Part shown: one piece after another, positions 4,817 through 25,821 of the stretch
Layout of the letters: each line of letters starts with the position of its first letter
How positions within the stretch are numbered: position 1 is the stretch's first letter
Assembly (NCBI GenBank): GCA_020630805.1
Contig: JAHDIM010000005.1
Span: forward strand, 6,329 to 54,535
From: Anaerolineales bacterium
GTDB lineage: Bacteria > Chloroflexota > Anaerolineae > Anaerolineales > UBA6668
Direction of reading: 5' to 3'
Length of the DNA: 48,207 nucleotides
Made by a program: the position numbers and the translations under genes
The notes under the pieces: generated by a model
Told to the model about the DNA's origin: nothing
The model's database searches: none
The model's input: only the letters and a program-made list of their open reading frames with translations

Positions 4817-4822
4817 TGTAAA

Positions 4823-7750
4823 TTAGTGTTGCATGATGCACTGTGGTGCAGTGCTAAGTAATAAAACAGCTTCACGGACCCGACGATCACGAGCCGTTGC
4901 GGCAGCTTCGTCTGAGCCGCCATCGCGCCAGAAGTGCGCGTCATAGACGCCCGTAATCACAATCTCACGAGGATCTGTGAGCGTGTCACCAGTTGCATTT
5001 GCAGCCAGATAGCCACCACATAGATAGAGATCCAAAGCATCTACCAGTGCAGCTGAGGCGTTGCGGATGGCGTTGGGGTCATCAAATGTTTCATCTACCG
5101 ATGTGAATAAATTGTCATCATTGGTATCTAATGCTGCGGTATAAATGTCGTGGAATGGCGAGGTGACCGGGAAGACCACCTTCGCAACTTCACCATTGTG
5201 TTGCGGGCGCTGCCCCCAAATCCCGCTCCAAAGCGCAAGATTCTGATACGTGTTGTAGGTATTGATGACGTTGTTTTCAGTGGCAATCTGCATTTCGGGC
5301 GTGACCAAACCAGCTTCCGAAACAGCGCCAGCCGGTACGTAGTCTGGTGAGAACCAATTGAAAACACTTGGCGCATACAACGGGGACTGCCGCAACCCAT
5401 CGCCATACAGCATGGAATTTTGCGAAATATAAATAATGCTGGTGTTCGCTTCATACAGCGCATTTTGTTCAACTGGAAGTCCAAAAGAGTTGAGCGTAAT
5501 TAGTTGAAAATCGTTATGCAAGGTAGACGTCGCATTGATCGTGCGTAACGCGCCAGCTAAGCGCACCAGCGGTTCTGACAAACGCCCTTGGCTAACGCGG
5601 TTCAGGTGATCTAAATTGCGCGCCTCTGGATCCAGCAAAATCGCTTTGAGCACTTCACCTAAGTCACCATTTGTATTGGTAAAGACTTGCGAAACGCGGT
5701 AGATATACCCTGGCGACGGGTTCGATGTCACTAAGCGTTGGATCAAGCGGTAGCTAATAAAGGGCGCCGTATTTGCGTGTGTCGCCAACATCGCCATGGC
5801 CTGATCAAGGTCTTGTTCGCCCGTTTGTCCAGCCGGGAAGGTCTGGCCAAGAATCGTCTTTTGTAAATTGTCGTGATACCGCTGATACCCACCTTGTGTC
5901 GGGTCTAAGCCATTGTCTTCAAACATCTTCATCGATTGCATGAAGTGGGGGTGGTAATACGCTTGGTTGTCTCTAGAGTAGCCACCAAAGTTGAAATTGG
6001 TGTTCTCAATGGTGGAATCGGTGACGCCATTGTCAGGCGTGGTGACCGCATAGCCCCAGCCGGTAAAGACGCGCGCCAGTTCGGTAATGTCGGTTTGGTC
6101 ATAGGTTTGCGTTGGCAGACCTTCTGAACTGAGCTTAATGGAGCCATCTGGGTGCAATTGCACGAGACCAATTGAAAACAACTGCATGACTTCGCGCGCA
6201 TAGTTTTCATCCGGTGACGAGATGACGTTCCCGTCACCATCGACACGTTCCATACTGTTGCGCAAATGTGACAAGTAATTCCCCATTGCCGGATGTGTGG
6301 AAACATCGGTCAAAAGAGTCTGATAGTCAGTAAATGCATGCCCTTTGAGCATGTCGTAATAGCTACCAATCATCCACGGATTTGCACGTAACGCATTGTC
6401 ACCCTGCGAAATGACAAGAATTTCACTTAGGGCAAAGGCCATGCGCTCACGGAGTTGGGCCTTGCTATACACAGCGCCGGTATACCAAGCAGGTTCAAAC
6501 CCAGACACTCTAGCGCCCCAGTTGATGTTGGTGCCGTTTGTCTCGGCATACATGCGCATTTGCGCCAATGAAAAGTCTGCCGCAGAAGGCGCTTCTAACA
6601 GCATTTGTTCATCTAACCATTCGGTATATGCCGCAATACGATCCCCACCATGATTGGCAACGCGGGTTTGCATGTCTGCTACCGTCGCCGGTGTGGGGCC
6701 AAAGGTTGCTTGCGTCAAGAAGCGCGCAATGTCGCGTTCTAATTCAGCACCAGTCAAAGATGCAATCGGGTCTGGGTCTGGCGGCACTTGCATCGCAATG
6801 CCCCCTTCAACCGGCGCAAACGTCCCGCGGATCTCACCGCCGTTATAGTCTGCACTGTGCACATTGATATACAAGTGCCCACCGATTAGCGCGTCTAACG
6901 TGTCTTGATTGGTGACTAAGTGGTGCGCCGCTTCAATATCCCACCGATCTCCATTAATCTGACCCATGCCCACACTGTAGACAATTGGGCCACTGAGTGG
7001 CGTTCCAACGTGAATATGCGCTGCGGTTTGTTCTGAAGTGAGGTTGCTATATTCCATGTCAAGCATGGCATAGCTATTGTCATTTGAAAGGCGCAGGGCG
7101 GCTAATCCGTTAGCGTTTGTGTCGGCATCCCCTTCAGCATGCATTTGTGCAAATAACAACAAGCTGTCTTGGGTAATGCCGGGCGCATCGTCAAGAATCT
7201 TCATCTCAACACTACGGTTCGTTGGATTGATTTGATAATCCGAATGCTCAACAAGTGCAAAGTTGAGTTCTTCAGGCACTTCAAGCGTGTCGTCCGGAAC
7301 AGGAACAATCTCAATGTCTTGCGCCCACTGTCCAACGCCAAATTCAATAAAACTATCGATGACGGTGCCGTCTGTTTTTCGCAGAATATAGTCTGTTCCA
7401 GACGCAGAACTGAGCGCAGCGTTGTCTGACCCTGTTGTCGCAACTTCAAGGATGATTGCGCCGAGTCCACCTGTGCGCGAGACCCGCAAAGAGATGGGTT
7501 GATTGGTCGCCTCAATCGCATTGTGGTCATCTGAGATCACGCGAATTGAGAAGACGCTGTCATTTGCGAGTGTTGGTCCGGTGGGTTTGAACACCACTGG
7601 CAAATACACCTCAGTAGACACTAATAGATTGCTAGTTGCACCATATTCAAACGGAATTTGAAATGTGAATCCTAGCAACACACCAATGAGGCCAAGCGTG
7701 CGAAGCCAGTTATTGCGAAACCAATCAGCGAGTTCTTTTCGTAAAACCAA
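4823..7750 (-). CDS. DUF1800 protein with Calx-beta and CHRD modules
   Basis: Order of domains: an N-terminal hydrophobic segment (about 16-33) acting as signal peptide or anchor; a Calx-beta-like region (about 55-190; SGTDYILRKTDGT and DDTLEVPEELNFAL are typical); a CHRD domain (about 200-315; HIHVGTPLSGPIV and GHLYINVHSADYNGGEIRGTF are its hallmarks); and a DUF1800 domain (about 335-970) with FLTQATFGP, REVMQLFSIG, and ELARVFTGWG motifs. DUF1800 itself has no known reaction. The only in-frame start is a TTG at 7750, directly preceded by an in-frame stop two codons earlier, so the start is forced unless translation begins further inside. The gene is upstream of and nearly contiguous with DUF1501. 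Confidence 0.88.
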   Translation of the reverse strand: MVLRKELADWFRNNWLRTLGLIGVLLGFTFQIPFEYGATSNLLVSTEVYLPVVFKPTGPTLANDSVFSIRVISDDHNAIEATNQPISLRVSRTGGLGAIILEVATTGSDNAALSSASGTDYILRKTDGTVIDSFIEFGVGQWAQDIEIVPVPDDTLEVPEELNFALVEHSDYQINPTNRSVEMKILDDAPGITQDSLLLFAQMHAEGDADTNANGLAALRLSNDNSYAMLDMEYSNLTSEQTAAHIHVGTPLSGPIVYSVGMGQINGDRWDIEAAHHLVTNQDTLDALIGGHLYINVHSADYNGGEIRGTFAPVEGGIAMQVPPDPDPIASLTGAELERDIARFLTQATFGPTPATVADMQTRVANHGGDRIAAYTEWLDEQMLLEAPSAADFSLAQMRMYAETNGTNINWGARVSGFEPAWYTGAVYSKAQLRERMAFALSEILVISQGDNALRANPWMIGSYYDMLKGHAFTDYQTLLTDVSTHPAMGNYLSHLRNSMERVDGDGNVISSPDENYAREVMQLFSIGLVQLHPDGSIKLSSEGLPTQTYDQTDITELARVFTGWGYAVTTPDNGVTDSTIENTNFNFGGYSRDNQAYYHPHFMQSMKMFEDNGLDPTQGGYQRYHDNLQKTILGQTFPAGQTGEQDLDQAMAMLATHANTAPFISYRLIQRLVTSNPSPGYIYRVSQVFTNTNGDLGEVLKAILLDPEARNLDHLNRVSQGRLSEPLVRLAGALRTINATSTLHNDFQLITLNSFGLPVEQNALYEANTSIIYISQNSMLYGDGLRQSPLYAPSVFNWFSPDYVPAGAVSEAGLVTPEMQIATENNVINTYNTYQNLALWSGIWGQRPQHNGEVAKVVFPVTSPFHDIYTAALDTNDDNLFTSVDETFDDPNAIRNASAALVDALDLYLCGGYLAANATGDTLTDPREIVITGVYDAHFWRDGGSDEAAATARDRRVREAVLLLSTAPQCIMQH

Positions 7751-7997: not shown

Positions 7998-10900
7998 TTA
8001 GCGCTGCTTTGTAACAGAGGACACTGCGCCACCGAACATCATGAAGACCCCCACGACGCCAACAATTAGAGCCGCTATTCCAGCAATGATGAACATCATT
8101 GGGTTGAAGAACCCTGTTTCTGGGAGAGCATCTGGAATAATTTGCACGCCCGCCACATTACTGCGAATTTCAGTCGTGGTATCTGCACTGGCCACAAGCG
8201 CAAAGCTGTCAATTGCAACACCGGCAGTTGCGGTTTCATTGACCTTCACCGTGACGCGAATTTCAATCGTCTGCGCAACACCCAGCGTGTCCAGTTCGGC
8301 CACAATTTCACGGGTCGCGCTGTCATAGCTGACCTTGCCCTTTTCGCTAAACCCACCGATGTAGTCCAGCTGTGGGGAGAGTTCTGAACGCACCACGACA
8401 TCATCTGCCGGTTCATTGCCTTGGTTAGAAAGCGAGATGGTGTAGACCAAGTCACTCCCAACTCTGCCAATTGCGGCATTACTGCGGACATCTACTAAGA
8501 GCTGTGGTGCAGTCGCTGGTGTTGGCGTTGGCACTGGGGTTGCCGTGTTTGGTGCTTCTAAGTTTGCCGTGACAACGGTATTGTCATTGATGACATTGTT
8601 AGTTTGCGCAACGGCAACGGGAGTAGACGTAGCCGCACTTGTCGTTTGATTACTCACCTGCGTTGGCGTTGCAGTGTTGGTAGCGACACCGGCTTGTGGC
8701 GTAAAGGTCGCTGTTGCGGTGTTCGTTGCCGTCGCCCCAACTGGCGGCGTAAACGTTGGCGTTGCCGTATTCGTTGCAGTTGCGCCCGCTTGCGGGGTAA
8801 ATGTAGGCGTTGCCGTATTGGTCGCTGTTGGGTTGCTACCTGCTTGCGGCGTAAACGTTGGCGTTGCTGTATTCGTTGCAGTTGGTGTTGCTGTTGGATT
8901 ATCGCCGGTGCTCACACCAATCCCTAATGGATCATAAATGATGCCATCAGCCGCAGTGTCATCGCCGAACATCCCGTCTTGCAGGGTGAAGGTCACGGTG
9001 ACAACCGTTTTGCCATCAATTTCGATAGTGTCAAATTCAGCGTCGTATTCGTACCAGTCGGTCACTGGGCCGTTTGGCTCTGTTGGCCCAAACTTCCGCA
9101 ATACAAGCCCTTCCGGATCGCTAACGTCGTGCAAGATGAGGGTCACTTCACTTTCGCCACCAGTTTCTCCACAGCCAAGGCGGTAGTCAATGAGACCAAA
9201 TGGATAGTCGTAGTCTTCATCGTCACGGACGACTTCGTCTTCGCGCAGCGTATTGTCTACGACGAGATCTTCACACGTCCCTTCAAATTCAACGGTGACA
9301 TATTCTTCATCGTCTTCAGCCGTGGTCAACGACGCAACATTATTTTGCAACGCATCTGGTGTACCATCGTTATTGCCATCACCGTCATTGGGAGCATTGA
9401 CTTCAACAATGGTGTCAACACCGTTACCGTCATCATCTGAGTCTAGATAGTCAGGCGTCCCGTCCTTGTCGGTGTCTTGCGCGTCAGAAGGATCACCGTC
9501 TCCGTTCGGGTCTGGGTTTTCCAATGCGGTATCTAGACCATCGTCTTCGTCATCGGCGTCGGCCCAGTCTGGGATACCGTCTTTGTCTGTATCGCGACAA
9601 GCATTTTCCCCTTCTGGACATTCTGCTTCGAATGACAACCCGTCTGTGTCAACTTGGAATGTAGGTATTGGTTCAGGTGTTTCCGTCGGTGGCACATCGG
9701 TCGCAGTTGGCGCTGGTGTTTCTGTCGGAGGCACATCTGTTGCGGTTGGTTCAGGCGTTTCCGTCGCCGGAACTTCTGTCGCAGTTGGCTCCGGTGTTTC
9801 CGTCGGTGGTACGTCCGTTGCCGTTGGTTCTACTGTATTTGTCGCCGTTGGCTCTACATTTGATTCAGCAATTGGTGGTGCGTCAGACACCGGCGATTCG
9901 ACCGGTTCATCAGTCGGCACAACAGTTGCTGGGGTTTCGGTCGGTGGCACAACAGTTGGTTCTTCAGTTGGTGGCACATCCGTTGCTGTTGGTTCAGGCG
10001 TTTCCGTCGGTGGCACGTCGGTAGCCGTTGGTTCTGGCGTTTCCGTTGGTGGCGCATCGGTTGGAGCTGGCTCTGGCGTTTCCGTTGGAGTGACTGGATT
10101 TGGATCAATCACAGTAAAGGAAGCAACATCATCTGGGATAACCACGTCAGTCGCTAAGGTGCCATTGGTTTCTAGCTTGAGTTGCAAGTCATAGACACCA
10201 GCCTCCAGCGCCGCAAATTCCGCAAACATATCTTCATTGAAAACTGCACTCGGATAATCGCCTTCAGCAAACGTTGCGAGGTAGTCCCCATTCATATAGA
10301 GCTTGAGGATTTCATCATCGCCAAACTCAAAATTCTGATCTAAGTTGAAGAAAAAGAATGCAAATGGAATGTCGTTTCCAATTTCAAACTCACGTCCGTC
10401 ATGTGGACGTGTGAGGCGCACATAAGGTCCATAGCCAGGGTTATGGTTCAGTTCAGACCATGTCTGAACTGAGAACATCGGCAGTGGTTCATCAGTCGTA
10501 GGATCCACCGTCCCTGCTTGCGCTGCGCGGTAAGGGGTTTCTACCCGACTAATCGATTCGTCATCTTTTACTTTCTTATAATCGACTTCAAGCACTGTGC
10601 CCTTGTTCGCTTCAAGTGCATAGTTAGCAAAATAGGGAACGTCTGACACGTCTGTATCCCAAAACAGAAAGTCGACCATGACGTCTTTAAATTGCGCTTC
10701 ATCGAACACGTTTGGATAGTGCGTGTAAAGGGCAACTGTCACATCTTTTTTGGGAATATCTGAGTCCCAGTAAAACACGAGCACATCACCCGGCGCAAAA
10801 TCTTCATATGGGGGATTAGGGTCGTCCCCATAAAATGTCTTGATTTTTTCACACTGAATTTGCACACACAAATAGTAGTCGCCAAAATTCTCATCTTGCG

Positions 10901-11135
10901 TGATACCAAGGTTTACCAACTCAATCCAGTCTTGGTCATTGGCAGAGCCATCACCATTGAAATACACCTCATTGATATAAATTTCAGTTGCTGGAGGTTG
11001 GGTGTTCTCTGCTGAGTCGCCAAATGCGAAAGTCAGAGACACATTACTTGCATTAAGCAACAAAGCCAACAGGGATGCGATCCCAATTAGTAACAAGCGC
11101 TTTGCAGCTGCTGGTGAAGTAACAATACGTGCCAT
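7998..11135 (-). CDS. LPxTG surface protein A: LTD, one TSP3 unit, choice-of-anchor U, DUF11
   Basis: A secreted 1045-residue protein. I prefer the ATG at 11135 (preceded by AGGAAA five bases upstream) over the GTG at 11168 used by the ORF track. Layout: signal peptide (about 10-38); lamin-tail-like domain (about 51-165; [20 protein letters not shown]); a beta-sandwich-like region (about 235-345); a Pro/Thr/Glu linker of repeated [12 protein letters not shown] units (about 350-490); Asp-rich thrombospondin-3-type calcium repeats (about 515-600); a choice-of-anchor-U-like domain (about 610-745, [15 protein letters not shown]); a second Thr-rich linker; a DUF11 domain (about 865-985); and LPETG at about 1004 followed by a hydrophobic stretch and a KQR tail. 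This is a complete sortase sorting signal. Role is inferred: cell-wall-attached adhesin or structural filament. It is the last of four paralogues. Confidence 0.88.
8685..8895. repeat. tandem DNA repeat encoding [14 protein letters not shown] linker
   Basis: About four imperfect units of roughly 45-55 bp built around GCTTGCGGCGTAAACGTTGG and a GTTGCCGTATTCGTTGC-like tract. They encode the Thr-rich linker of protein A, between its choice-of-anchor-U and DUF11 domains. Coordinates are approximate. Confidence 0.75.
9655..10095. repeat. tandem DNA repeat encoding [12 protein letters not shown] linker
   Basis: Repeated units of 36-48 bp with the core GGTGTTTCCGTCGGTGGCAC, each encoding a [11 protein letters not shown](D/E) segment in the minus-strand gene. 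The array explains the long shadow ORFs the track shows on the plus strand here. Such arrays change length readily by slippage or recombination. Coordinates are approximate. Confidence 0.8.
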
Positions 11136-11524
11136 AAAATTTCCTATACGATCCAAGTTTTTCTCCACTCTTAGTGTAAGTAATTACACATTTTGCAAAA
11201 TTGAGGTTGGATTGTTTTTTATTGAGGAAAAATAAAAAGTAAGAATCTGGTTACCTTGGTTGGGCAGGCTTAAGAGAATCTTTAGCAAATGCACCTGTAC
11301 TACTGATTTACGACCACCGTCATAGGTGGACATTTCACACCAATGCAAGATTCAGCCACTGAATTAGGCGCTGCGGGCTACCGCAAATTCAGGTAAATAA
11401 GTGAGATTTCAGTCGAGCTCTCCGTAACATGACTGAGAAATTGTTAGTGCGCAAAAGTTGGCATCAAGCGAAGGCAGCGACTGGCGCGTCTAGGTAAGCC
11501 ATGCCACAGTAACCAAACCAAAAC

Positions 11525-11548
11525 GGCTCCTCGTAAATGAGGAGCCGC
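11525..11548 (-). terminator. hairpin, probable terminator downstream of gene B
   Basis: CGGCTCCTC pairs perfectly with GAGGAGCCG around GTAAAT. On the minus strand the stem is followed by TTTTGG. It lies 145 bases beyond the stop of gene B, further than the terminators of the three other paralogues, because the REP-like element intervenes. Confidence 0.7.
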
Positions 11549-11582
11549 AATGACTTCAAGGGATTAGGACTTTCGGATGTCA

Positions 11583-11660
11583 GAGCGCATTGAGCCTGTC
11601 GAAATGCCACATTGTCACTAGTGGCAAGCCTTACCTGCAGGCGACAAGCTCAGTGAGCAA
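11583..11660. repeat. REP-like palindromic element
   Basis: The outer arms are imperfect inverted copies: GCGCATTGAGCCTGTCGAAA at the left, and GGCGACAAGCTCAGTGAGCA at the right, whose complement reads TGCTCACTGAGCTTGTCGCC. The inside carries GGCAAGCCTTACCTGC, itself a short hairpin. The same core (GGCAGGCCTTACCTGC) occurs in the element at 28520-28707. The CTGAGC.TGTCG wording is typical of dispersed intergenic repeats. Confidence 0.6.
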
Positions 11661-11693
11661 AAGTCCTTGAGGGGTTGAAAGCAATCTCAGGCG

Positions 11694-14600
11694 TTATCGC
11701 TTGGCAAATTTAGTCACGAGGCCACCAAAGACCAGCGCCCAGCCAGCTGTTGCCAGTAACAACGCCACAATGCCGGCAATAATGAGAAATTGCGCATTGA
11801 ACACGCCCGTCTCAGGCAATTCACTCGGAATGACCTGCACACCTGCAACATTCGTCTTGAGTTCGGTGGCCGCATTTGCGTCTGCCGCAAACTCAAAGGT
11901 TTCAATCGGCACGCCGGCTTGGGCATTTTCATTCACTTTGGCCGTCACGCGGATCGTTACCAGTTCACCAACCGGAATGTCAGTCAATTCTGCATATAAC
12001 TCGCGCTTCTCATTGTCGAATTCAACGCGGCCTTTTGAGCTAAACCCACCAATATAAGTCAGTTGCTCTGGCAAGATGGTTCGCAGTGCAACATCTTGGG
12101 CTTGCTTATTCCCTTCGTTCATCACCGAAATACGATACACAATATTGTCACCAATTTGAGACACGGCTGCATTCGCTCTGACATCCACAAATAGCTTCGC
12201 CATCTGATCAGCGTCAGTTGAAGCGGTTGTGTCCTGCGGGGTTGCGGTCGGCTCAGATGTTGCCGTATTGGTAGGTGTTGGCGTGTTCGTCGCTGTATTC
12301 TCTAGCGCTGCTGTTGCAATTGGCGTTGGCGTATTTGTATTGGTGCCTGTTGGGACAACCGTGCCGGGTCCTACCGTATTTGTTGCCGTCGGCGTGCGCG
12401 TTGGCGTATTTGTCGCCGCGCTTGTGCCGGTTGGGCTTGCTGTGAACGTGGCGGTTGCCGTATTCGTTGGGGTCGGAGTGTTTGTTGCGTCAGACTGCGA
12501 CTGGAGTGCAATCTCTGCAGTTGGTGTCAGCGTTGCCGTACTCGTGGGGGCTGACGTTGGCGTACTGGTCGCGGTAGCCGTGTTTGTTGCCGTTGCAGTT
12601 GGGGCAATAGAGAACATTGGTGTGTTCGTCGCGGTTGCGGTTGGGGTAACGTCATCGCTTTCTACACCAATTCCAAATGGATCTAGAATCATACCGTCTT
12701 CAACTGAGTCATCCCCAAGGACGCCATCAGTCAAAGAGAAGGTCACCATCACGACAGTCTGTCCGCCAATGACAGTAGTTGAAAAGTTTGCAGGGAAGTC
12801 GTACCAATCGCTGGTGGCGCTCCCTGGGGTCACTGGGCCATACTTGCGCATCACCAACCCTGTTGGGTCATCTAACTCATGAATGAGTAGCGTGAGATCG
12901 CTCTGTTCGCCTAAGTCACCACAGCCCAATTGATAATCGATGAGGCCAAACGGATAGTCATACATCACGTCTTGCAACGCAATGTCACCTTCAACAATTG
13001 CTGCATGCAAGTAGAACTCAGCACAGTCCCCTTGTGATTCCATAGTGACATAGCCACTGGTGATTTCAGCATGAGGGAAAGACGCAACGTGATTTTGCTC
13101 AGCATCTGGAATGCCATCATCGTTGGCGTCACCGTTGTTTGGTGCGTTCTGCTCTAAGGCTGTGTCTACATTGCTGCCGTCATCATCTTCATCAAGATAG
13201 TTTGGCGTGCCGTCAGTGTCACTGTCGGCTGCATCTGCGGGGTCGCCATCACCGTTCGGGTCAGCGTTTTCTTGAAGGGTTGGAATCCCGTCTTCGTCAT
13301 CGTCAGTGTCCAGATAATCTGGCGTACCATCGGCATCTGTGTCTAGCGCATCAGCTAGGTTACCATCGTTATTCGGATCTGCGCCTTCAAACCCATTACT
13401 GATGCCGTCCCCGTCAGCATCGGCACCATCATCAATCGCATCGAGATAGTCTGGAACGCCGTCCGTGTCTGAATCAAGCGCATCTGCTGGGTCAGTATCC
13501 CCATTCGGGTCTGGGTCTTCGCCGCTGGTCAGCGTGCCGTCTTCATCATCGTCACGATCGATGAAATCTGGAATACCGTCCCCATCAGAGTCGAGCCCGT
13601 CAGCAGGATCACCGTCACCATTCGGGTCTGGATCTTCGTAGATGGTGGCAATCCCGTCGTTATCATCATCAGTGTCTAGATAGTCTGGCGTAACCGTGCC
13701 ATGCGTGTTGCGGGCATCATCTGGGTTCCCATCACCATTCGGGTCTGGGTCTTCAAAAATTGTATTGACGCCATCATCATCGTCGTCAGCGTCCAAGTAG
13801 TTCGCAGTCGTATCTGTGTCAGTGTCAATTGCGTCATTGTCGTCACCGTCACCATCTGGATCTGGATCTTCGTAAATCGTATCGACACTGTCACCATCAT
13901 CATCTGGGTCACGATAGTTTGGAATGCTATCCGTGTCCGTATCTAGCGCATCACTTGGATCTAAGTCATTGTTAGGATCGCTGTATTCAAAAATAGTTTT
14001 CAGCGTGTCGCCGTCATCATCTTGATCAAGGTAGTCTGCAACGCCATCGCCATCCGTATCTACGGCATCGTCTGGGTTACCATCACCGTTCGGATCTGAG
14101 AGTTCAAAGATTGTGCCGACACCATCGTCATCGTCGTCATTGTCAAGGTAATCTGGCAGCAGATAACCGTTGTGACTGTTTTGAGCATCGGCCGGGTCAC
14201 CATCACCATTCGGGTCTGGATTTTCGTACAAAGTCTTGACGCCATCATCATCGTCATCGTTGTCTAGATAGTCTGGGATCGAGTCCGTGTCTGAATCTTG
14301 GGCGTCTGAGATATCATGGTCGCCATTGGGATCTGACCCTTCGAGGTCACCAAAGAGACCATCGCCGTCATCATCACGATCTAGATAGTCTGGGATGCCG
14401 TCGCCGTCCGTATCTTGCGCATCTGAAAGATCACCGTCGCCATTTGGGTCTGGATTTTCATACAGGGTGCTGACCATGTCGCCGTCATTGTCCCAATCGA
14501 GCCAATCGGCTTTCGTCGCACCATGGGTTCGAAGCGCATCATCTGGATTGCCATCGCCATTTGGGTCAGCTTGTTCCAAGATAGTTGGCAGACCGTCGTC

Positions 14601-15893
14601 ATCATCGTCAGGGTCTAGATAGTTTGGTAAGGCATCGCCATCTTCATTGTCAGCGTCAGCTGGGTCACCGTCACCGTTGGGATCTGGCCCTTCGTAAATC
14701 GTGAGAATGCCGTCACCATCATCATCTGGATCTTGATAGTCAGCTAAGCCGTCACTATCGGTATCCACACAGTCTGGCAAACCAGTTGGACACTCAGTGG
14801 CAAATGAGAGGCCATCGCCATCGGTGTCTTCATAGCCGTTTTCAACAACGGTGAAATTCACAATATCTTGCAGGTTGCTTGATGCGCCAGCAGCAGCGTA
14901 GGTGAATTGAACCGCCTTCAGTTCGTAAGTTCCCGGAGCTAGGCCCTGTAATTCAACGTAGTCAACTAAGGTAACGTTCTGTTCACCAATATCTGCTGTT
15001 GAATGTTCAGCAATAAGCACATCATCCAGATAGACCCTGATGACATCATTTCCGTCTGTGCCTGTGCTGTAGTTCAGGTCAAAATTACTATGGAAGTATT
15101 GGTAGTCAATCGGATCCCCTTCCATGTAGCCCGCGCCGTCTAGCGGTGTGACAATGCGTAAATACGTCCCAAACTGAGGATTATGCAACCCTTCTGAAAC
15201 CGCGACATATTCAAAGTCTGACCCGTAAGCAAAGTTACCATTGGCCGGGTCTGGCGTAATTGGACCGTTGTTTTCTAATTTGGTGCGTTGTAAGGAGTCG
15301 TTTGGTGGCAGTACTGTCAGGCCTTCTTTGTAGAAGAAACTCGCTTTGCCTTCTGCTGCTGCATCTAAGGTAAGCAGAGGCAAGTTACCTGTGCCATCGC
15401 CCCAGTGTACTAAGTCCACCAGTTGGTCAACCAAGTCTGCATGCGGTTGCCCTTGCGTCGGATCTTCCGTGTGCAAGGACAGCGTGGCGTTGTGGTCTGG
15501 CATGTCTTCGCCCCATGAGACAAAGAGCAGGTCTGGAGCCGCAAGATCCACATAAAATGGATCTGTTCCAGTCGGCACCAAGTCTGCAATCCGTTTACAG
15601 TTGGTCAAATCAATACAGACATAATATTGATCGAACCCCATCGCCACATCAGTCCCCAGATTGACCACTTCAAACCAATCGGTGTAGCCTGAGCCAGGTA
15701 TCACCTTGAAATTGACTTCATTGATGTAAACACCTTGTCGCTCAACTGTCAGATCTGTGGGGTTGCTCCATTGCGCATATAAAGGCTGCACCATAACTAA
15801 CGTTAGCAGCACGCCAAGAATGGCCCAAACGCTCATGCGGGATCTTGTGAGGGGTGAGTAAAACGCGGTTACTACGTTTCGTTTTGCACTCAT
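11694..15893 (-). CDS. LPxTG surface protein B: LTD and 13-unit TSP3 array
   Basis: A 1399-residue secreted protein, the middle-downstream member of the four-gene array. Order: signal peptide ending near PLYAQ (about 22-41); lamin-tail-like domain (about 52-170; [21 protein letters not shown]); a beta-rich region (about 240-350); 13 Asp-rich units of about 39 residues plus a terminal partial unit (about 356-937; unit core [20 protein letters not shown]), of the thrombospondin-3 calcium-binding type; choice-of-anchor-U-like domain (about 940-1085; [15 protein letters not shown]); Thr-rich linker; DUF11 (about 1233-1350); LPETG at about 1359, a hydrophobic helix and a KFAKR tail. ATG at 15893 is preceded by GAGAGAAAG. 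Calcium binding would stiffen the stalk; surface attachment by a sortase is inferred. Confidence 0.88.
13085..14830. repeat. TSP3-encoding DNA repeat array in gene B
   Basis: About 13 degenerate units of roughly 117-120 bp encoding the Asp-rich calcium repeats. Recurrent words are CCATCACCATTCGGGTCTGG and ATCATCATCGTC. Units are diverged enough to show independent histories, and some have lost the DTDGDG loop (for example those with RTHGATK or NTHGTVTP instead). Confidence 0.8.
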
Positions 15894-15934
15894 AGAACTT
15901 TCTCTCGTGGTATACCGTTACAATCAAAAAAATT

Positions 15935-15969
15935 GACAACAGGCAAACTGCCCAGTTTCAACCTGTGTC
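15935..15969 (-). promoter_or_regulatory. leader hairpin upstream of gene B
   Basis: GACAACAGG pairs with CCTGTGTC (one bulge). On the minus strand the stem is followed within two bases by a run of seven T, resembling an intrinsic terminator placed in the 5' leader, about 40 bases before the ATG. A hairpin at the equivalent place precedes gene C (20754-20789). Possible attenuator; function is inference. Confidence 0.4.
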
Positions 15970-16086
15970 AGCGCTAACATGTATTGACCTGTATAGCGCG
16001 CTGAAACAAATAATCACTTCTCTCCCAAAATAATTATTCGTCTCCAAATACTTATTAGATGTATTTAGTGTAATTAGAATCCACAA

Positions 16087-16120
16087 TTTAGATTGTTTAG
16101 GGTAACTTGAGACTTGGTAA
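16087..16120 (-). promoter_or_regulatory. conserved upstream block of gene B
   Basis: Plus-strand reading TTTAGATTGTTTAGGGTA then ACTTGAGACTTGGTAA. It matches the block upstream of gene C (20911-20944) at most positions and the one before the DUF1800 gene. Immediately downstream in the direction of transcription, genes B and C also share a TCTnATTACACT box, so the conservation extends over about 70 bp. Confidence 0.55.
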
Positions 16121-16397
16121 AAGCCAGCGGTGCGCGTCGAAACGCCAAAGGTCATGCAGGATTTAGGAAAGTTTAGAAGCTCAAGCCGAGTCACATCTGA
16201 ATCTCCTAGTCGTTTGAAGAATCTAGTCAAATTTTTACATTGTCAGATTAAATAGCAGTGCCCCTTGTGAGGCAATCGACTCGATTATTGGTTTAAATTC
16301 AGTAGAAACTGGTTAGACCAGAGTCTAGAGATTAATTATTGGCGCCGCTAACATTAAGGAGATGCGCTGTAGTAAAACAGTCACATCCAGAAAACAA

Positions 16398-16427
16398 AAC
16401 AGGCTAGCCTTGTCGAGCTAGCCTGTT
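16398..16427 (-). terminator. intrinsic terminator of gene C
   Basis: AACAGGCTAGC pairs perfectly with GCTAGCCTGTT around CTTGTCGA. On the minus strand it is followed by TTGTTTTC, 29 bases after the stop codon of gene C. Confidence 0.9.
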
Positions 16428-16456
16428 GATATTCACAAATTACCGCGCGGTTTCTG

Positions 16457-19400
16457 TCAGCGTTCGTCGCGAGAAGCCCGAGACAGAATGCCGCCAAACA
16501 GCAGCGTCCAGCCTGCCGCAGCGAGACCAAGTGCCACAGCGCCGGTTAGCAACAGCATGCGCGTATCAAATGCGCCCGTATTGGGCAATTCCCCTGGCAC
16601 AACTTGAACACCAGCCACGTTGGTTTGCAATTCAGTGACAGCATCTGCCTCTGCTGCAAACAAGAACGTTTCAATTGGTACACCAGCAACGGCGTCCTCA
16701 TTGACTTTTGCCGTAACGGTAATAGTCGCTAACTCACCCGCCTCAAGCGTGTCTAAGTCAGCAAAGACTTCCCGTTTTGCGTTGTCAAAGCTGACTCGTC
16801 CTTGCGAGCTAAAGCCACCAATGTAGTCCAACTCTTTTGGAAGCCCAGTCCGTAAGACCACGTTATTGGCGACATCATTGCCATCATTCATGACAGAGAT
16901 TTTGTAGACAATATCGTTCCCAATGCGGCTGATGGTTTTGTTTGCACGGACATCAACAAACAACTTAGACATACTATCTTTATCGTTCTCTGTGCTGATA
17001 TTTTCAAGCGTAGGTGCGACCGTAGCTGTCGGCGATGGCGTTGCCGTTGGGGCAGGCGTTGCTGTCGCGGTGTTCGTTGGCTCAGTTGTTGGCACCGCCG
17101 TATTGGTTGGCGTCGGCGTATTGGTAGCCCCCGGCGCCGCGGTTGCCGTATTGGTTGGTGTCAACGTTGCTGTCGGCGTATTGGTAATAGTAGCTGTGGC
17201 TGCTGGCGTTGCCGTGTTTGTTGCCGTAGCAGTTGCACTGGGCGTTGTTGTTGGCGTTGCCGTATTGGTTGGCGCTGCTTGCAGGGCTGCATTGAATTCT
17301 TCAACCGCTTCTGTTGCCGTTGGCAGAATTGGGAAGAGCGGTGTGGGGGTCATGGTTGGCGTTGGAGTCGGTTCTCCAGTTTCAACACCAATCCCCAATG
17401 GATCTAAGATCATGCCGTCTTCAATACTGTCATCCCCAACAATACCGTCTGTGAGTGAGAAATTGACCATCACCACCGTTTGACCGCCAATCACAGTAGT
17501 TCCAAATGTTGCCGGATAGTCATACCAATCGATATCGGTACTCCCTGGTGTTACTGGCCCATATTTGCGGAAGACCAGCCCTGCTGGGTCTGAAATTTCG
17601 TGAATCAGAAGAGTGACATCACTCATCTCACCAAGGTCACCGCACGTCAATTCATAGTCAATCAGACCAAATGGGTAGTCGTAGTAGATATCCTGTGTTG
17701 CGACATCACCTTCGACCAAGGTGCCTTGCAAAACAAAGTCGGCACAGTCTCCTTGAGATTCCATCGTGACATAGCCCATGCTGGTTTCTGCATGTGGGAA
17801 AGAGGCAACGTTATTTTGCTCAGAGTCAGGCGTACCATCGTCATTGGCATCGCCATTATTTGGAGCATCGTTTTCAATGACAGAGTCAACGTTGCTCCCG
17901 TCATCATCGGTGTCGAGATAGTTCGGAATGCCGTCATTGTCAGTATCTAACGCGTCTGAATAGTCACCATCTCCATTAGGATCAGCGCCTTCTTCTAGGT
18001 TGCTAAGTCCATCATTGTCGTCATCATCATCAAGATAGTTTGGAATGCCATCTGCGTCAGCATCTGCGGCGTCACTAGGGTCAGCGTCGCCGTTTGGGTC
18101 AGCGTCTTCCAAAGAAGTGAGAATCAGGTCGCCATCATCATCGGTATCGAGATAATCCGGCGTGCCGTCATTGTCAGTATCAACCGCATCTGCTGGGTCT
18201 TTATCTGCATCTGGGTCCTGATTTTCTAATTCACTTTCGAGCCCATCGCCGTCGTCATCTTTATCAAGATAGTCTGGGATTCCATCAGCATCCGTGTCTT
18301 GGGCATCGTCTGGATTACCGTCACCATTCGGGTCTGGATTTTCATGCAGAGAGTAGATGCCGTCGTTATCATCATTCCGATCCATGAAGTCAACTGCAAT
18401 TGCACCAAATGTGTTGCGGGCATCGTCTGGATTACCGTCACCATTTGGGTCTGGGTCTTCATAAATACTGTGAACACCGTCGCCATCATCGTCTTCATCC
18501 AGATAATTTGGAATGCCGTCACTGTCTTTGTCATCCGCGTCACTGGGATCATTGTCGCCATCTGGGTCAGCAAGTTCAAATTCAGTATGAACGCTATCCC
18601 CATCATCATCGATGTCTAGATAGTCAGCAATACCATCGCCATCGCTGTCTTGCGCATCGGCAACGTCTTGGTCATTATTCGGATCTGGGTTTTCAAAGTC
18701 ACCAAAAATACCGTCCCCATCATCATCACGGTCAAGGTAGTCTGGCGTGCCATCACCATCAGTATCTTGCGCATCTGAAAGGTCACCATCTCCATTCGGA
18801 TCTGGGTTTTCATAGAGCGTGCTAACCAAGTCACCGTCATTGTCCCAGTCTAAGTAGTCGGGACGCGTTGCGCCGTGTGTTCTTAGCGCATCATCTGGGT
18901 TGCCATCCCCATTCGGGTCGGCTTGCTCTAGATTGGTGGGCAATCCGTCGCCATCATCATCAGCATCTAGGTAGTTTGGCAGCGCATCGCCGTCTTCATT
19001 ATCAGCATCGGCTGGGGAACCATCACCGTTTGGGTCTGCGCCTTCAAAAATAGTCCAGACACCGTCATTGTCATCATCGATATCTAAGTAATCTGGGCCT
19101 GCAATGGGGTCGCTATCTTGGGCATCAGACGGTTCACCATCACCATTGGCATCCGGATTTTCATGAATAGTGAACACGCTGTCACCATCATCGTCTTCGT
19201 CCAAATAGTCTTTGATGCCGTCCCCATCAAAGTCACGCGCATCAACGGGATCTAGATCATCTAAAGCCGGTGCTTGCTCATAAATACTATGGATGCCATC
19301 GCCATCATCATCGACATCTAAGTAATCTGGCAGCGCGTCGCTGTCCGTATTTTGCGCATCGGCGGGGTCACCGTCACTATTCGGGTCAGGATTTTCATAG

Positions 19401-20710
19401 AGCGTCCCAATCCGGTCGCCATCATCATCGGCATCCACATAGTCAAAGCTCCCATCGCCATCTGTATCTTGCGCGTCGGCCACACTGCCGTCGCCATTCG
19501 GGTCAGGATTTTCGTTGATTGTGAGAATGCCATCGCCATCATCGTCTGGGTCTTCCCAGTTTTCCAGTCCGTCACCGTCAGTATCGACACAGTTGCCAGT
19601 GCCAAGTGGACACTCGACCGCAAAGGGCAATCCATCACCGTCAGCATCGGGTGGTGCTGCAACGACTTCAAAGTTAATAATCTCTTGCAACGTAATAATG
19701 GGCGTTGTGCCAGAGGTATAGTGCTTCTGTGTCAAACGAAGTTCGTAAGTGCCCGGCGCTAGACCTTGAAACTCAACATAGTCTGCTTGCAGTCGATTGT
19801 GCTCTGTATTGTTTGCAGTCTCAACTTCATCAATACTGGTGCCGTCCAAAAAGACTTCAACAGTGTCATTGCCATCAAAGCCGTTGACATAGTTTTGATC
19901 AAAATTCATGACAAAGTATTGAAAATCAATCGGAGCGCCTTCATTGAAGGTGTCACCATCTTGCGGCTGAATAATGCGCAGATAAGGCCCAAAAGCTGTA
20001 TTTGGTGCCCCTTCCGTCATTGCAATGTATTCAAAGTCTGTCCCATATGCAAAATTCCCATTGGCCGGATCTGGCGTAATGGGCCCATTACTTTCTAGCT
20101 TCGTGCGTTGGAGCGTATCTGTTGGGGGAAGTAAAGCCGCAGTCACATATGAAAAGCTAACCTTCCCTTCGACTGCAGCGGCATCAATTAGCGGGTCAAT
20201 TGCTGCGGTTCCATCACCCCAGTAGACCAAGTCCACTAATTGCTCAACAAGTTCTGCTTGCGTCTGACCTTGGGTTGGATCTTGCGTGTGAATGGAAAGA
20301 GATGCGTTTACGTCTGGCATATCCTCACCCCAAAAGACGTGAAGGATGTCAGGCGCAGCAAAGTCAACGTAGAAGTTGTCTGTTCCTGGGGTAATGATGT
20401 CAGCAATCTGCTTGCAGTTCGTGAGATCAATACAAGCGTAATACTGATCAAAACCCATTGCTACGTCTGTTCCGAGGTTAATGACCTCAAACCAGTCTGT
20501 GAAAGCCGCTGTTGGGTCTACTCGAAAGTTGACTTCATTGATGTAAACACCATGGCGCTCAACAGTGAGGGTTGTTGGATTGCTGACTTGTGCATATAGC
20601 GGATGCACCACTAAAAAAGCCAAAAGCAAGCCTAATAAAGCTCGCATTCCAATGTGGGATTTTCTGAGGGGTGAAAAAAACGCGGTTACAACGTTTTGTT
20701 TTATACCCAT
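16457..20710 (-). CDS. LPxTG surface protein C: LTD and 14-unit TSP3 array
   Basis: A 1417-residue close paralogue of protein B: the first 350 residues align almost throughout ([32 protein letters not shown]). Order: signal peptide, lamin-tail-like domain, beta-rich region, 14 Asp-rich units plus a terminal partial unit (about 354-968), choice-of-anchor-U-like domain (about 970-1110), Thr-rich linker, DUF11, then LPNTG at about 1375, a hydrophobic helix and a RASRDER tail. The sorting motif has Asn at the third variable position (LPNTG) unlike its LPETG sisters, still within LPxTG. ATG at 20710 is preceded by GAGAGAG. Its calcium-repeat array holds four extra units before the block shared with B. 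Surface attachment and adhesion are inferred. Confidence 0.88.
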   Translation of the reverse strand: MGIKQNVVTAFFSPLRKSHIGMRALLGLLLAFLVVHPLYAQVSNPTTLTVERHGVYINEVNFRVDPTAAFTDWFEVINLGTDVAMGFDQYYACIDLTNCKQIADIITPGTDNFYVDFAAPDILHVFWGEDMPDVNASLSIHTQDPTQGQTQAELVEQLVDLVYWGDGTAAIDPLIDAAAVEGKVSFSYVTAALLPPTDTLQRTKLESNGPITPDPANGNFAYGTDFEYIAMTEGAPNTAFGPYLRIIQPQDGDTFNEGAPIDFQYFVMNFDQNYVNGFDGNDTVEVFLDGTSIDEVETANNTEHNRLQADYVEFQGLAPGTYELRLTQKHYTSGTTPIITLQEIINFEVVAAPPDADGDGLPFAVECPLGTGNCVDTDGDGLENWEDPDDDGDGILTINENPDPNGDGSVADAQDTDGDGSFDYVDADDDGDRIGTLYENPDPNSDGDPADAQNTDSDALPDYLDVDDDGDGIHSIYEQAPALDDLDPVDARDFDGDGIKDYLDEDDDGDSVFTIHENPDANGDGEPSDAQDSDPIAGPDYLDIDDDNDGVWTIFEGADPNGDGSPADADNEDGDALPNYLDADDDGDGLPTNLEQADPNGDGNPDDALRTHGATRPDYLDWDNDGDLVSTLYENPDPNGDGDLSDAQDTDGDGTPDYLDRDDDGDGIFGDFENPDPNNDQDVADAQDSDGDGIADYLDIDDDGDSVHTEFELADPDGDNDPSDADDKDSDGIPNYLDEDDDGDGVHSIYEDPDPNGDGNPDDARNTFGAIAVDFMDRNDDNDGIYSLHENPDPNGDGNPDDAQDTDADGIPDYLDKDDDGDGLESELENQDPDADKDPADAVDTDNDGTPDYLDTDDDGDLILTSLEDADPNGDADPSDAADADADGIPNYLDDDDDNDGLSNLEEGADPNGDGDYSDALDTDNDGIPNYLDTDDDGSNVDSVIENDAPNNGDANDDGTPDSEQNNVASFPHAETSMGYVTMESQGDCADFVLQGTLVEGDVATQDIYYDYPFGLIDYELTCGDLGEMSDVTLLIHEISDPAGLVFRKYGPVTPGSTDIDWYDYPATFGTTVIGGQTVVMVNFSLTDGIVGDDSIEDGMILDPLGIGVETGEPTPTPTMTPTPLFPILPTATEAVEEFNAALQAAPTNTATPTTTPSATATATNTATPAATATITNTPTATLTPTNTATAAPGATNTPTPTNTAVPTTEPTNTATATPAPTATPSPTATVAPTLENISTENDKDSMSKLFVDVRANKTISRIGNDIVYKISVMNDGNDVANNVVLRTGLPKELDYIGGFSSQGRVSFDNAKREVFADLDTLEAGELATITVTAKVNEDAVAGVPIETFLFAAEADAVTELQTNVAGVQVVPGELPNTGAFDTRMLLLTGAVALGLAAAGWTLLFGGILSRASRDER
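17815..19650. repeat. TSP3-encoding DNA repeat array in gene C
   Basis: About 14 degenerate units of roughly 117-120 bp, with words such as CATCACCATTCGGATCTGG and GTCATCATCATC. Units 5-7 of C match units 1-3 of B nearly residue for residue, including an irregular LRTHGAT unit, while other units cannot be paired simply. Confidence 0.8.
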
Positions 20711-20753
20711 ACTACACTCTCTCTAATTGTGATACCTACACAAACAAAATTTT

Positions 20754-20789
20754 GACAACAGTTGGCCTTCCCACTTGCATTCTGTTGTC
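20754..20789 (-). promoter_or_regulatory. leader hairpin upstream of gene C
   Basis: GACAACAG and CTGTTGTC are perfect inverted copies separated by 20 bases, about 45 bases before the ATG of gene C, followed on the minus strand by AAAATTTTG. It is at the same position as the hairpin in the gene B leader although the loop sequence differs. Confidence 0.4.
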
Positions 20790-20910
20790 TTTTGCACACG
20801 CATATCCATGTTTGAAACAAAAGGGATCTGCGTGGCAGTCTTTTGCCTGCCCAACTAAACTGAGCCCATAAGAATTTGCGTACTGATCCAGTGTAATAAG
20901 ATTCGACAAT

Positions 20911-20944
20911 CCAGATTGTTTAGAGTCCATTGAGACTTGGTAAG
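20911..20944 (-). promoter_or_regulatory. conserved upstream block of gene C
   Basis: Plus-strand reading CCAGATTGTTTAGAGTCC then ATTGAGACTTGGTAAG, about 200 bases before the start. See 16087-16120 and 7821-7854 for the matching blocks. Confidence 0.55.
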
Positions 20945-21076
20945 AGGCTCTGAACATCATCACAACAAGAACCAAGTCATACTTAAAGGTCTTTTATTTA
21001 GCAGTCTCCTATAACTTACACTCCTATTTCTCAGCGTACATGCGAGTCATCCTTTTTGTTACTCTGATTAAATAAA

Positions 21077-21106
21077 AAAGCCACCTTGTGTCGGCAAGGT
21101 GGCTTT
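21077..21106 (-). terminator. intrinsic terminator of gene D
   Basis: AAAGCCACCTTG pairs perfectly with CAAGGTGGCTTT around TGTCGG. On the minus strand the stem runs into TTTTTTATTT, 31 bases after the stop codon. Confidence 0.92.
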
Positions 21107-21137
21107 ACATTTGAAGTTTGAGTCCAGTATGAAGCCG

Positions 21138-24128
21138 CTATTTCTCGCGACCAAGCTTAACAATTGCACCACCGAACATTAAGGACCAGCCCAATGTACC
21201 CAGCGCCAGTGCAAGCAAGCCCGCAACAATAAGATGCCAAGACTTGAAGTAGCCAGTTTCCGGTAGCGCGTCTGGAATAACCTGTACCCCGGCCACATTT
21301 GAGTCGGTCGCCGTTGTCCCAGCGCCGATGACCGTTGCCGTGTTATTGATGGTAATCCCCGCTGATGCAGACGCATTGACGCGGGTGTCAATGGTCACCG
21401 TTGCACTTTGGCTGACTGCCATGTCACCAATTGGGATAGAGACCGTGCGGCTACCTGGATCATACGAAGCTCCATTTGAGCCGCTAACGAAGTCCAATTG
21501 CGGACTGAGTACATCCGTAATGGTGACGCCGCTCAGTGCCACTCCACTCGTGTTTTGAATGGTGATGGTGTACGTCAGCGTACCATTGATGCGGCTAATT
21601 GACGCACTTGACGACTTACTAATGGAGAACTGTGGCCCCGTGTTGGGCACAACTGGCACAGCCGTTGGGTTCACAATGGTCGGCACCGCAGTCGGGACTG
21701 CTGTCGCTGGCACCGGTGTCGGCGTGCTGGTTGCAGCTGTGTCTGGTGTTGGGGTCGCCGTCGCAGCTGGGTCTGGCGTTGGAGATGGCGTTGGTGTTGC
21801 ATCTTGCAGCACGGCCACACCCAATGGGTCATAAATCACCCCATCAACTGCTGTGTCATCACCGGCAACACCGTCAGTAATGGTGAAGGTTACGGTAACA
21901 ACCGTTTTGCCATCAATGGTGGTGGTGCCAAAGGTTGCGCTGTAGTCGTACCAGTCGCTTTCGCTGCCGCCTGGTGTGGTTGGCCCATATTTACGGATAA
22001 CCAAACCAGTTGGGTCGCTCAAGTCGTGCAGGATCATGGTGACATCACCACTTTGACCGGCTGCGCCACAAGTCAGTTCATAATCGACCAAACCATATGG
22101 ATAGTCATATTCACTGTCTTGCTCAGCGACCTCACCTTCTGTGAGCGCGCCGTTGACGTTCAAGTCATCACAGTCACCAGTGAAAACCACAGTGATGTAA
22201 TCATCTTCGCCTTCTTCAGACTCTGCGGACACAAGGGATACCACGTTGTTTTGCAACGCATCCAAGGTGCCATCATCGTTACCGTCACCATTGTTTGGTG
22301 CATTTACTTCAACAATAGTTTCAACACCGTTCCCGTCATCATCTGAGTCGAGGTAGTCTGGTGTACCGTCTTCATCTGTGTCTTGGGCGTCTTCATCGTC
22401 ACCGTCGTTATTTGGATCTGGATTTTCTTGTGATGTGTCAAGACCATCGCCTTCGTCATCATCATCCGCCCAGTCTGGGATACCATCATCGTCAGTGTCT
22501 TGACACGTATCCACGCTATGATCTGGATCTGGTGTCCCTTCTGGACATTCCACATCTTGATCTAGGCCATCGCTGTCGTCGCTAAACGGTTGTGGTGTTG
22601 GCGTAATAGTTGGTGTTGAAGTCGCTGTCGCGTTTGGATCCGCCGTTGGCGTTGCCGTTGCGTCCGGGTCAACCGTTGGGGTTGCCGTTGGTTCGTCAGT
22701 CGGTGTTGCCGTCGGTTCGTCTGTTGGCGTTTCAGTCGGCGTCGCCGTTGGTTCTTCCGTTGGCTCTTCCGTTGGTGTTTCGGTTGGGACTGGCGTTGCG
22801 GTCTCAGTTGGTGTTTCCGTTGGGGTGCTCGTGGCTTCAACCGTATTGGTTGCTGTTGGAACCGTGGTTGGCGTGTTGGTTGCCGTCCAAGTTGGTTCTG
22901 CTGTGCCTGCAGGTGTCCCCGTTGCCGTTGGCGTTGACGTCATTGGCGTGCCAGTAGCTGGCGGTTCCGGGGTTTCTGTTGGTGTATCCGTTGCTGGCGT
23001 GGCCGTTGGCGGAACCTCAGAAGTTGCCGTGGCCGTTGCTTCTACTGTTGCGGTCGGCTCTTCAGTTGCCGTTGCAGCTACCGTCGGGGTTTCGCTTGGT
23101 GTTTCTGTAGCAGGCGTGGCCGTCGGCGGTGTATCCACGGTGGCAGTTGGCGTTGCGGTAAGCGCCACAATGTCAACAGAGATCATGTCAGAGACATTGA
23201 TCAACGTGCCATCCGTTTGGGCTAGTGACAATTCAATGGTGTGTGTACCAGCGGTCAGCGAATTGATATTCACCGTGCCAGATGGATTATAGACAGCACC
23301 AAGGTCGGTTTCATCGACAATCACGCGTAAGTGTGGACCTGGGTCACCATCAATCGCGTGGCCGATCACGAAATATTCAACTGAAACAGCGTCCCCTTCA
23401 TTGACCTCGGCACCGGTAAGCGGTTCATCAATGCGAATGAATGGCCCGAAATTGGTGTTGTAGTCGTCTGGAGAGGCTGTGCCGTTTTCCCAGATGTCCG
23501 TGACATTCGCAGACACAGGGTCATTTACAGCGTCATAGTGCGTCCGAGACGCGGCTATGCGTTGCAATGTTTCCGCGCCAGTCGCCACTGGCACAAATTC
23601 AAATACATCGGTTGAGGGTTCTTCCCAAATGCCTTTCGTGACAGCCACATCAACGCGCCCAACATCAGATGCGGTTCCATATTGGACAAAGTCCATCATG
23701 TTGGCCGCATCGCCAAAATTGGTATTGTTGATATACAGTGCCATGTCACCGGCAGCGTCGTTTAGATCTTCATCAGTTGGAATTTGAACGACCATGACTT
23801 CACCGGGTTCAAGGTTGTAGTCAGCCGCATTCAGCGTTGTCAACTGTCCAATTTGCCAATACACAAATTCAGCACACAAGTAGTAGTCGGTAATGTCTAC
23901 CGTTTCAGTGCCAAGGTTTGTTAGTTCAACCCAGTCTTCATTAGACGCAGTCCCATCACCCAAATAGGACACTTCGCTAATCATAATTTCTGGGTTATCT
24001 GGGTCGCCTACTGCTGCAAACGCCTGTGGGGCAGATGCAAACACTAAGAGCAGCATGGTGAGGACCGTGCTGACCCCAGCAAATAGGGCACCAAATCTCG
24101 AGTTCTTCTTTACAATATACTTATTCAT
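21138..24128 (-). CDS. LPxTG surface protein D: LTD, one TSP3 unit, choice-of-anchor U, DUF11
   Basis: A 996-residue secreted protein, first of the four paralogues in transcription order and most like protein A. I place the start at the ATG at 24128 (GGA eight bases upstream); the ORF track uses a GTG two codons earlier. Layout: signal peptide (about 10-40); lamin-tail-like domain (about 48-165; [22 protein letters not shown]); beta-rich region (about 235-320); a very long Thr/Pro/Glu linker (about 325-505); short Asp-rich calcium-repeat segment (about 510-600); choice-of-anchor-U-like domain (about 610-750, [15 protein letters not shown]); Thr/Pro linker; DUF11 (about 830-940); LPETG at about 955, hydrophobic helix, KLGREK tail. 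Predicted sortase substrate; adhesion or scaffold role is inferred. Confidence 0.88.
22600..23160. repeat. low-complexity repeat encoding [13 protein letters not shown] linker
   Basis: Short degenerate units (GTTGGTTCTTCCGTTGG-like and GTCGGCGTTGCCGTTGG-like) code for the Thr/Pro/Glu linker of protein D. They also create the shadow ORFs listed on both strands. Coordinates are approximate. Confidence 0.7.
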
Positions 24129-24289
24129 AATCACAATCCATTTCCGCGTTTGTGCATTACCAACCCAATGTCATCTACTGTCGTTAACGTTAAGATTTCG
24201 TTTCTTTCGACAATTTGTGAGTAGACAGATATCACTACACGAGTCTAAATTTCCATCTACTAGTGTAGAGAGCCAGCAAATCGCCAAAG

Positions 24290-24322
24290 TTTAGATTTGG
24301 TTTAGACAAACTTGAGGAATCC
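24290..24322. promoter_or_regulatory. looser copy of the conserved upstream block, between gene D and the kinase-like gene
   Basis: TTTAGATTTGGTTTAGACAA then ACTTGAGGAATCC resembles the blocks before genes B and C. The GAGGAA inside it also serves as the ribosome-binding site of the GTG start at 24329, so part of the resemblance could be coincidental. Confidence 0.3.
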
Positions 24323-24328
24323 TTTACC

Positions 24329-25533: not shown

Positions 25534-25821
25534 TTAACCTACTAAGCTCACCACGTCCAATTCATCCTGATATTGCTCAACTTGCCACAAATCATATGTG
25601 GTTTGATGTCCTAACCAACTTTCAGCAGAACTTCCCAGCGCAAGCGAAAGCCGCACGGTCATTTCTGGCGTCACGCGGGCATTACCATTGATAATTTTTG
25701 ACAGCGTCTTTCGACTGACTCCAATGGCTTCAGCAGCAGTAATTGAAGTATCAAGCGGGTCTAGCCAAAGTCCTTTCAGAATTTCACTGGGATGGGGTGG
25801 GTTATGTTGCTTAATTGTCAC
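25534..25821 (-). CDS. higA: HigA-family antitoxin-like XRE protein
   Basis: The ORF track runs to 25935, but the real protein starts at the GTG at 25821, where GTG overlaps the TAG of the helicase (TAGTG). The 95-residue product begins [22 protein letters not shown] and has a helix-turn-helix ([35 protein letters not shown]) followed by [15 protein letters not shown], all hallmarks of the HigA/VapI antidote family. HigA normally represses its own operon and neutralises the RelE-like mRNA interferase HigB, usually encoded directly upstream. Here the upstream gene is the helicase, so this is a solitary or repurposed antitoxin. Overlap with the helicase stop suggests translational coupling. Confidence 0.82.

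Follow-up and report, generated by a model that had tools for sequence, protein, structure and literature searches.

Four tandem genes for probable sortase-anchored surface proteins with divergent heads and two predicted stalk types in a genus of Anaerolineales

Four consecutive minus-strand genes in a 48,207-nucleotide stretch (the window) of the genome of an uncultured Anaerolineales bacterium (Chloroflexota) probably encode calcium-stiffened display proteins that are anchored by a sortase and carry divergent heads. Their open reading frames comprise 1056, 1399, 1417, and 998 amino acids (genes A, B, C, and D as listed; Table 1), and, judged by orthologues, the starts of D and A are probably internal ATG codons (24128 and 11135, respectively). 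B, C, and D are paralogues of A, with 38 to 46% identity to it over a full-length alignment, and a search within the genome with D as the query retrieved A at an E value of 1e-129. The initial annotation, which described four consecutive paralogous surface-protein genes, was borne out by the open reading frames, the full-length alignment, and the shared domains. All four proteins are large and very acidic (net charge, -141 to -275), begin with a signal sequence, and have conserved cysteine pairs, which fit an exported protein. Together, the signal sequences, the LPxTG tails, and the sortases of the genome point to exported, sortase-type surface proteins, as was originally proposed. Head, repeats, choice_anch_U, DUF11, and LPxTG tail are present in all four, and to this extent the single shared domain order first described holds; the Thr/Pro linker that it placed ahead of the repeats is confined to A and D. 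The array is new as a combination; each of its building blocks is already known. The source assembly is a metagenome-assembled genome (MAG) of 500 contigs, 84% complete with 6.8% contamination.

Table 1. Positions of the four genes and of associated features in the window
Feature	Position	Strand	Description
Gene A	7998-11168	minus	1056 aa as listed; LTD/Ig-like head, 150-aa Thr/Pro linker, 2 Asp-rich units, choice_anch_U, Thr/Pro linker, DUF11, LPETG tail
Gene B	11694-15893	minus	1399 aa; LTD/Ig-like head, 14 Asp-rich units, choice_anch_U, Thr/Pro linker, DUF11, LPETG tail
Gene C	16457-20710	minus	1417 aa; LTD/Ig-like head, 15 Asp-rich units, choice_anch_U, Thr/Pro linker, DUF11, LPNTG tail
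Gene D	21138-24128 (ORF to 24134)	minus	996 aa from ATG 24128; LTD/Ig-like head, 195-aa Thr/Pro linker, 2 Asp-rich units, choice_anch_U, short Thr/Pro linker, DUF11, LPETG tail
Asp-rich units of A (two)	9366-9599	minus	residues 524-601
Asp-rich stalk of B	13122-14774	minus	residues 374-924, 14 units
Asp-rich stalk of C	17843-19591	minus	residues 374-956, 15 units
Asp-rich units of D (two)	22275-22505	minus	residues 544-620
LPETG of A	8112-8126	minus	below TIGR01167 cutoff
LPETG of B	11805-11819	minus	over TIGR01167 cutoff
LPNTG of C	16574-16588	minus	over TIGR01167 cutoff
LPETG of D	21252-21266	minus	over TIGR01167 cutoff
Box upstream of D (11-bp direct repeat)	24279-24327	minus	four units, CTMAAS-N5; TACACT at ~24262-24267
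Related box upstream of B	16087-16111	minus	CTCAAGTTACCCTAAACAATCTAAA; TACACT at ~16067-16072; similar place to D box
Degenerate box upstream of C	20913-20934	minus	TACACT at ~20890-20895; not significant alone
Intrinsic terminator after B	11523-11548	minus	strong; ~146 nt past B
Intrinsic terminator after C	16398-16427	minus	strong
Intrinsic terminator after D	21077-21106	minus	strong

The choice_anch_U domain (NCBIfam NF041766; cutoff, 32 bits) scored 60.2, 54.8, 53.3, and 51.2 bits in A to D, and these were the only matches in the whole genome. It is the best conserved part of the proteins, with 52 to 90% identity across copies. DUF11 (PF01345) was found in all four at 40.7 to 54 bits, over the curated cutoff of 24.6 bits. 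The domain searches therefore confirmed both assignments made from the first inspection.

Each protein ends in LP[EN]TG, a hydrophobic stretch, and a basic terminus, as previously noted, and the tails of the orthologues are also LPxTG at a fixed place ahead of the hydrophobic stretch. The TIGR01167 cutoff of 15.9 bits was exceeded by B, C, and D; the tail of A scored 13.1 bits. The motif ahead of LPxTG is NVAGVQ[VI][IV]P, so that the NVAGVQ(V/I)IP ascribed to all four holds for A, B, and D but not for C, which reads VVP. The motif was absent from the 15 other loci for surface proteins or sortases sampled from the same genome. With the pattern NVAGVQ..LPxTG..FGG, the tails of the array stand apart as a group from the IPxTG type that is frequent in the genome and accounts for 11 of 13 other sorting-signal-like C termini of surface proteins in the sample. 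Beyond the array, LPxTG was seen in the sampled loci in one LPNTG protein on contig C196 and one LPTTG protein adjoining a sortase on contig C423. Taken as a lead from a sample rather than a census, this suggests that the array may use a sortase preferring L.

No sortase lies within the window. The search of the genome that was suggested with the initial annotation returned 15 sortase-domain matches at E values of ≤0.001, 12 of them above the cutoff, in agreement with the proposed dependence on a sortase encoded outside the window. A genome devoid of sortase genes, which the initial annotation had named as contradicting its proposal, is therefore not what was observed. The two congeners (G001 and G002) also have 15 matches each; the sister genus has 1, and the other relatives mostly have 0 to 4 (maximum, 8). 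Several other sortases of the genome adjoin likely substrates, whereas the array has no adjoining sortase, and the absence of one from the window means that the idea of a self-contained "dedicated system" is not supported. Assignment of the array to one sortase by class was also abandoned, as none of nine classical sortases tested reached a class-level cutoff. The sortase on contig C383 contains a membrane segment, carries His, Cys, and Arg at the positions expected of a sortase, has a similarly high-scoring counterpart in most relatives, and resembles the class E and D models below their cutoffs. A putative YLP-type sortase on C196 (locus L028, 4795-5418; genome G000) passes its own model, NF053836, alone among the sortases tested; two weak sortase matches, on C436 and C423, are similar to it. 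Literature searches on sortases of Chloroflexota and Anaerolineae gave no relevant study.

A separate observation concerns a 2273-residue surface protein on contig C163 (locus L023, 809-7627, minus strand), which has eleven DUF7507 stretches, DUF11, and SdrD_B domains and ends in a sortase domain (residues 2135 to 2269). In many relatives, sortase matches likewise fall inside open frames of 2000 to 4000 amino acids. A fusion of this kind, in which a surface protein carries its own sortase, may merit separate study.

The same tails could instead be plain C-terminal membrane anchors that retain the proteins at the membrane without sortase processing. The subthreshold tail of A, the lack of a linked sortase, and the difference between the array tails and the IPxTG tails of the genome would all agree with this. 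However, an exact LP[EN]TG in all four proteins, its fixed position in orthologues, the passing scores of three of the four tails, and the many sortases of the genome are better explained by sorting, and we consider simple membrane retention unlikely.

The repeat unit is rich in Asp and 39 amino acids long, giving a 117-nucleotide period in the DNA. A hidden Markov model made from the B and C units counted 2, 14, 15, and 2 units in A to D, which replaces the earlier counts of one unit in two of the proteins and 13 to 14 in the other two; the same model gave 17 units for the G001 orthologue of B and 13 for the single complete B/C-type gene of G002. In A and D, a Thr/Pro linker precedes the repeats (54% and 57% T+P, respectively). 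In B and C, the repeats directly adjoin the head, and the long repeat stalk takes the place of this linker. All four have a further Thr/Pro linker, which joins choice_anch_U to DUF11 and is short in D. By this layout, the predicted stalks are of two types, short in A and D and long in B and C. Units within one protein share only about 52% identity, yet many of them keep their order from one species to the next: B units 2 to 7 and 9 to 14 correspond to units 5 to 10 and 12 to 17 of the G001 orthologue, and C units 1 to 9 correspond to units 1 to 9 of the G002 gene. Block insertions or deletions set the repeat arrays of different species apart. As read from these correspondences, the stalk is an old feature that has changed block by block.

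There are 39 DxDxDG loops in B and 43 in C, compared to a mean of about 1.2 in shuffled sequences. The initial annotation had likened the repeats to thrombospondin type 3 (TSP3) repeats. This identity was rejected, because no Pfam TSP3 model, nor any other Pfam family, matched the B and C repeat regions even at an E value of 5. The nearest solved relative in a PDB search was BamM of Flavobacterium johnsoniae (PDB 9n2d; E value, 0.0003 to 0.00045), in which seven metal ions, assigned as calcium, are bound by the domain matching the repeat (PMC12611786). Given the loops and this relative, the claim that the repeats bind calcium is well founded, and they probably do so.

The N-terminal head consists of a lamin-tail-like domain (LTD) and an Ig-like domain in A to D. 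The LTD model (PF00932; curated cutoff, 34.3 bits) was passed only by D, at 35.8 to 38.6 bits; A scored 17.8 to 21.8 bits, and the B and C heads gave no direct Pfam LTD match. Profile-profile comparison tied the heads to that of D, at E values of 8e-18 for A and 8e-11 for B/C. The LTD label first given to all four can therefore be kept as secure for D and, by sequence comparison, as indirect for A, B, and C. The head is the most divergent part, with 22 to 34% identity between the A, D, and B/C types, and the A head has only 37 to 47% identity among orthologues. Structure prediction gave low-confidence models (mean pLDDT, 61 and 51.5) of the B head with the first repeats and of the A repeats with choice_anch_U. 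The modeled head resembled only generic Ig/FN3/CARDB folds, the choice_anch_U model had no convincing fold match, and neither a stiff stalk nor a choice_anch_U fold was visible.

Several copies of large, very acidic repeat proteins might also be the blocks of an S-layer or filament sheath that assemble into a regular, calcium-stabilized two-dimensional array. An S-layer homology domain was not found in Pfam scans of the four proteins, however, and heads as divergent as these fit a recognition function better than a lattice, making such an assembly quite improbable. Binding of extracellular DNA by the LTD head, as proposed for bacterial LTDs fused to secreted DNases (PMC4486849), is highly improbable given the strong acidity of the proteins, the weak LTD in three of the four, and the finding of no nuclease domain in Pfam scans of the four.

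Conservation was surveyed in 61 genomes (G000, which holds the array, and 60 relatives). The full array was present in three, all of one genus and comprising all three searched of that genus, and was not detected in the 58 other relatives, four of which matched the DUF11-tail part only. The contigs of G001 are those of GenBank JAHDBS01, an Anaerolineales MAG; they keep the order D-C-B-A and, after it, the DUF1800 and DUF1501 genes, with the run spread over two contigs. In G002, D adjoins a B/C-type gene and A is on another contig. This synteny indicates that the array is native and maintained, despite the MAG source. The genes directly downstream of the array (window positions 3257-7750) encode a CHRD-containing DUF1800 protein and a DUF1501 protein, in the same place as in G001. 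A MrfA/Hrq1-like DEAD-box helicase with MZB and HNH domains is encoded at positions 25821-28373 of the window.

In domain trees, A, D, and an ancestor of B and C had already separated when the three species diverged, in line with the earlier view that the array was built by duplication. The G002 contigs end at the B/C-type locus, and the split of B and C may lie before or after the divergence of G002. Concerted evolution of the four copies was rejected, because genes A, D, and C mostly cluster with their orthologues in the other species; B groups with its own orthologue in the tail tree and not clearly in the choice_anch_U tree.

Upstream of D, an 11-bp direct repeat runs GTAAAGGATTC CTCAAGTTTGT CTAAACCAAAT CTAAACTTTGG and is followed by TACACT. 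A 27-bp core of this box is identical in the three species. The degenerate C box is no better than background (59 of 200 simulations), and A is preceded by a different conserved leader, with a weaker box match further up. Perfect or one-mismatch sites numbered 8, 5, and 6 in the three genomes, compared to 0, 1, and 1 for a reversed control, an enrichment that speaks against a chance origin. Sites also precede the gene of a giant DUF11 protein and lie close to other genes, among them a kinase-like gene and an aminotransferase gene, indicating that the box is not an element of surface-protein genes only; sites were seen in loci L208, L211, L220, L226, and L227. Sites of OmpR/PhoB-type response regulators typically have an 11-bp period, and the CTMAAS-N5 box is probably a response-regulator site. 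A terminator had been placed at or near the end of every gene. Strong intrinsic terminators do follow B, C, and D, whereas a terminator search downstream of A found none.

In the favored reading of anchored display proteins, each protein would be exported by Sec, and a sortase encoded elsewhere would cut the LPxTG tail and join the protein to the cell wall. DUF11 and the Thr/Pro segment would form the wall-proximal part, and the conserved choice_anch_U would cap the stalk. The stalk would be short and flexible in A and D (Thr/Pro and two repeats) and long in B and C, where 14 to 15 repeats of 39 amino acids would be stiffened by bound calcium. The lamin-tail and Ig-like head at the outer end would likely be the contact surface for neighbors, matrix, or substrate. 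As a more specific version, which we think rather unlikely, the array may be a genus-specific display of two reaches, in which one conserved anchoring chassis carries the four divergent heads on stalks of either type, the genes are coregulated via the 11-bp box, and extracellular calcium changes which heads are presented.

The array shares the signal sequence, the repeat region, the LPxTG-hydrophobic-basic tail, and the presence of sortases in the genome with the LPxTG proteins of monoderm bacteria (TIGR01167). Unlike them, it combines LTD, 39-amino-acid Asp repeats, choice_anch_U, and DUF11, a combination specific to the genus among the genomes searched, and has no class-defined sortase linked to it. 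Staphylococcal SD-repeat adhesins likewise have an N-terminal head, an acidic stalk, and an LPxTG tail and occur as tandem paralogues. Their likeness to the array is one of layout, with no sequence relation claimed, as the heads here are LTD/Ig-like and the stalk consists of a 39-amino-acid D-rich unit, not SD dipeptides. Only the Asp-rich repeat is common to the array and BamM (NF053691), which is itself a lipoprotein of an outer-membrane complex with a PPI domain, unlike the array; NF053691 scored 30 to 124 bits in the repeat region only, below its whole-protein cutoff of 315 bits. With TSP3 repeats, the array shares the Asp-rich DxDxDG loops but neither the length of the unit nor its pattern. 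Choice_anch_U (NF041766) proteins of other Chloroflexota have, as in the array, the domain and a preceding Asp-rich DGxxD..E.GAPN.GDGN segment. Several end in ..LP...R soon after the domain, a possible substrate signal, and none of those examined had LPxTG.

Literature searches for wall-anchored surface proteins of Anaerolineae-type Chloroflexota gave almost nothing. The finding extends the known kinds of LPxTG surface protein and breaks none. The likeness of the 39-amino-acid repeat to the recently solved calcium-binding BamM domain provides a structural handle, and the array and the 15-member sortase set of the genus are concrete genes for testing surface decoration in such bacteria.
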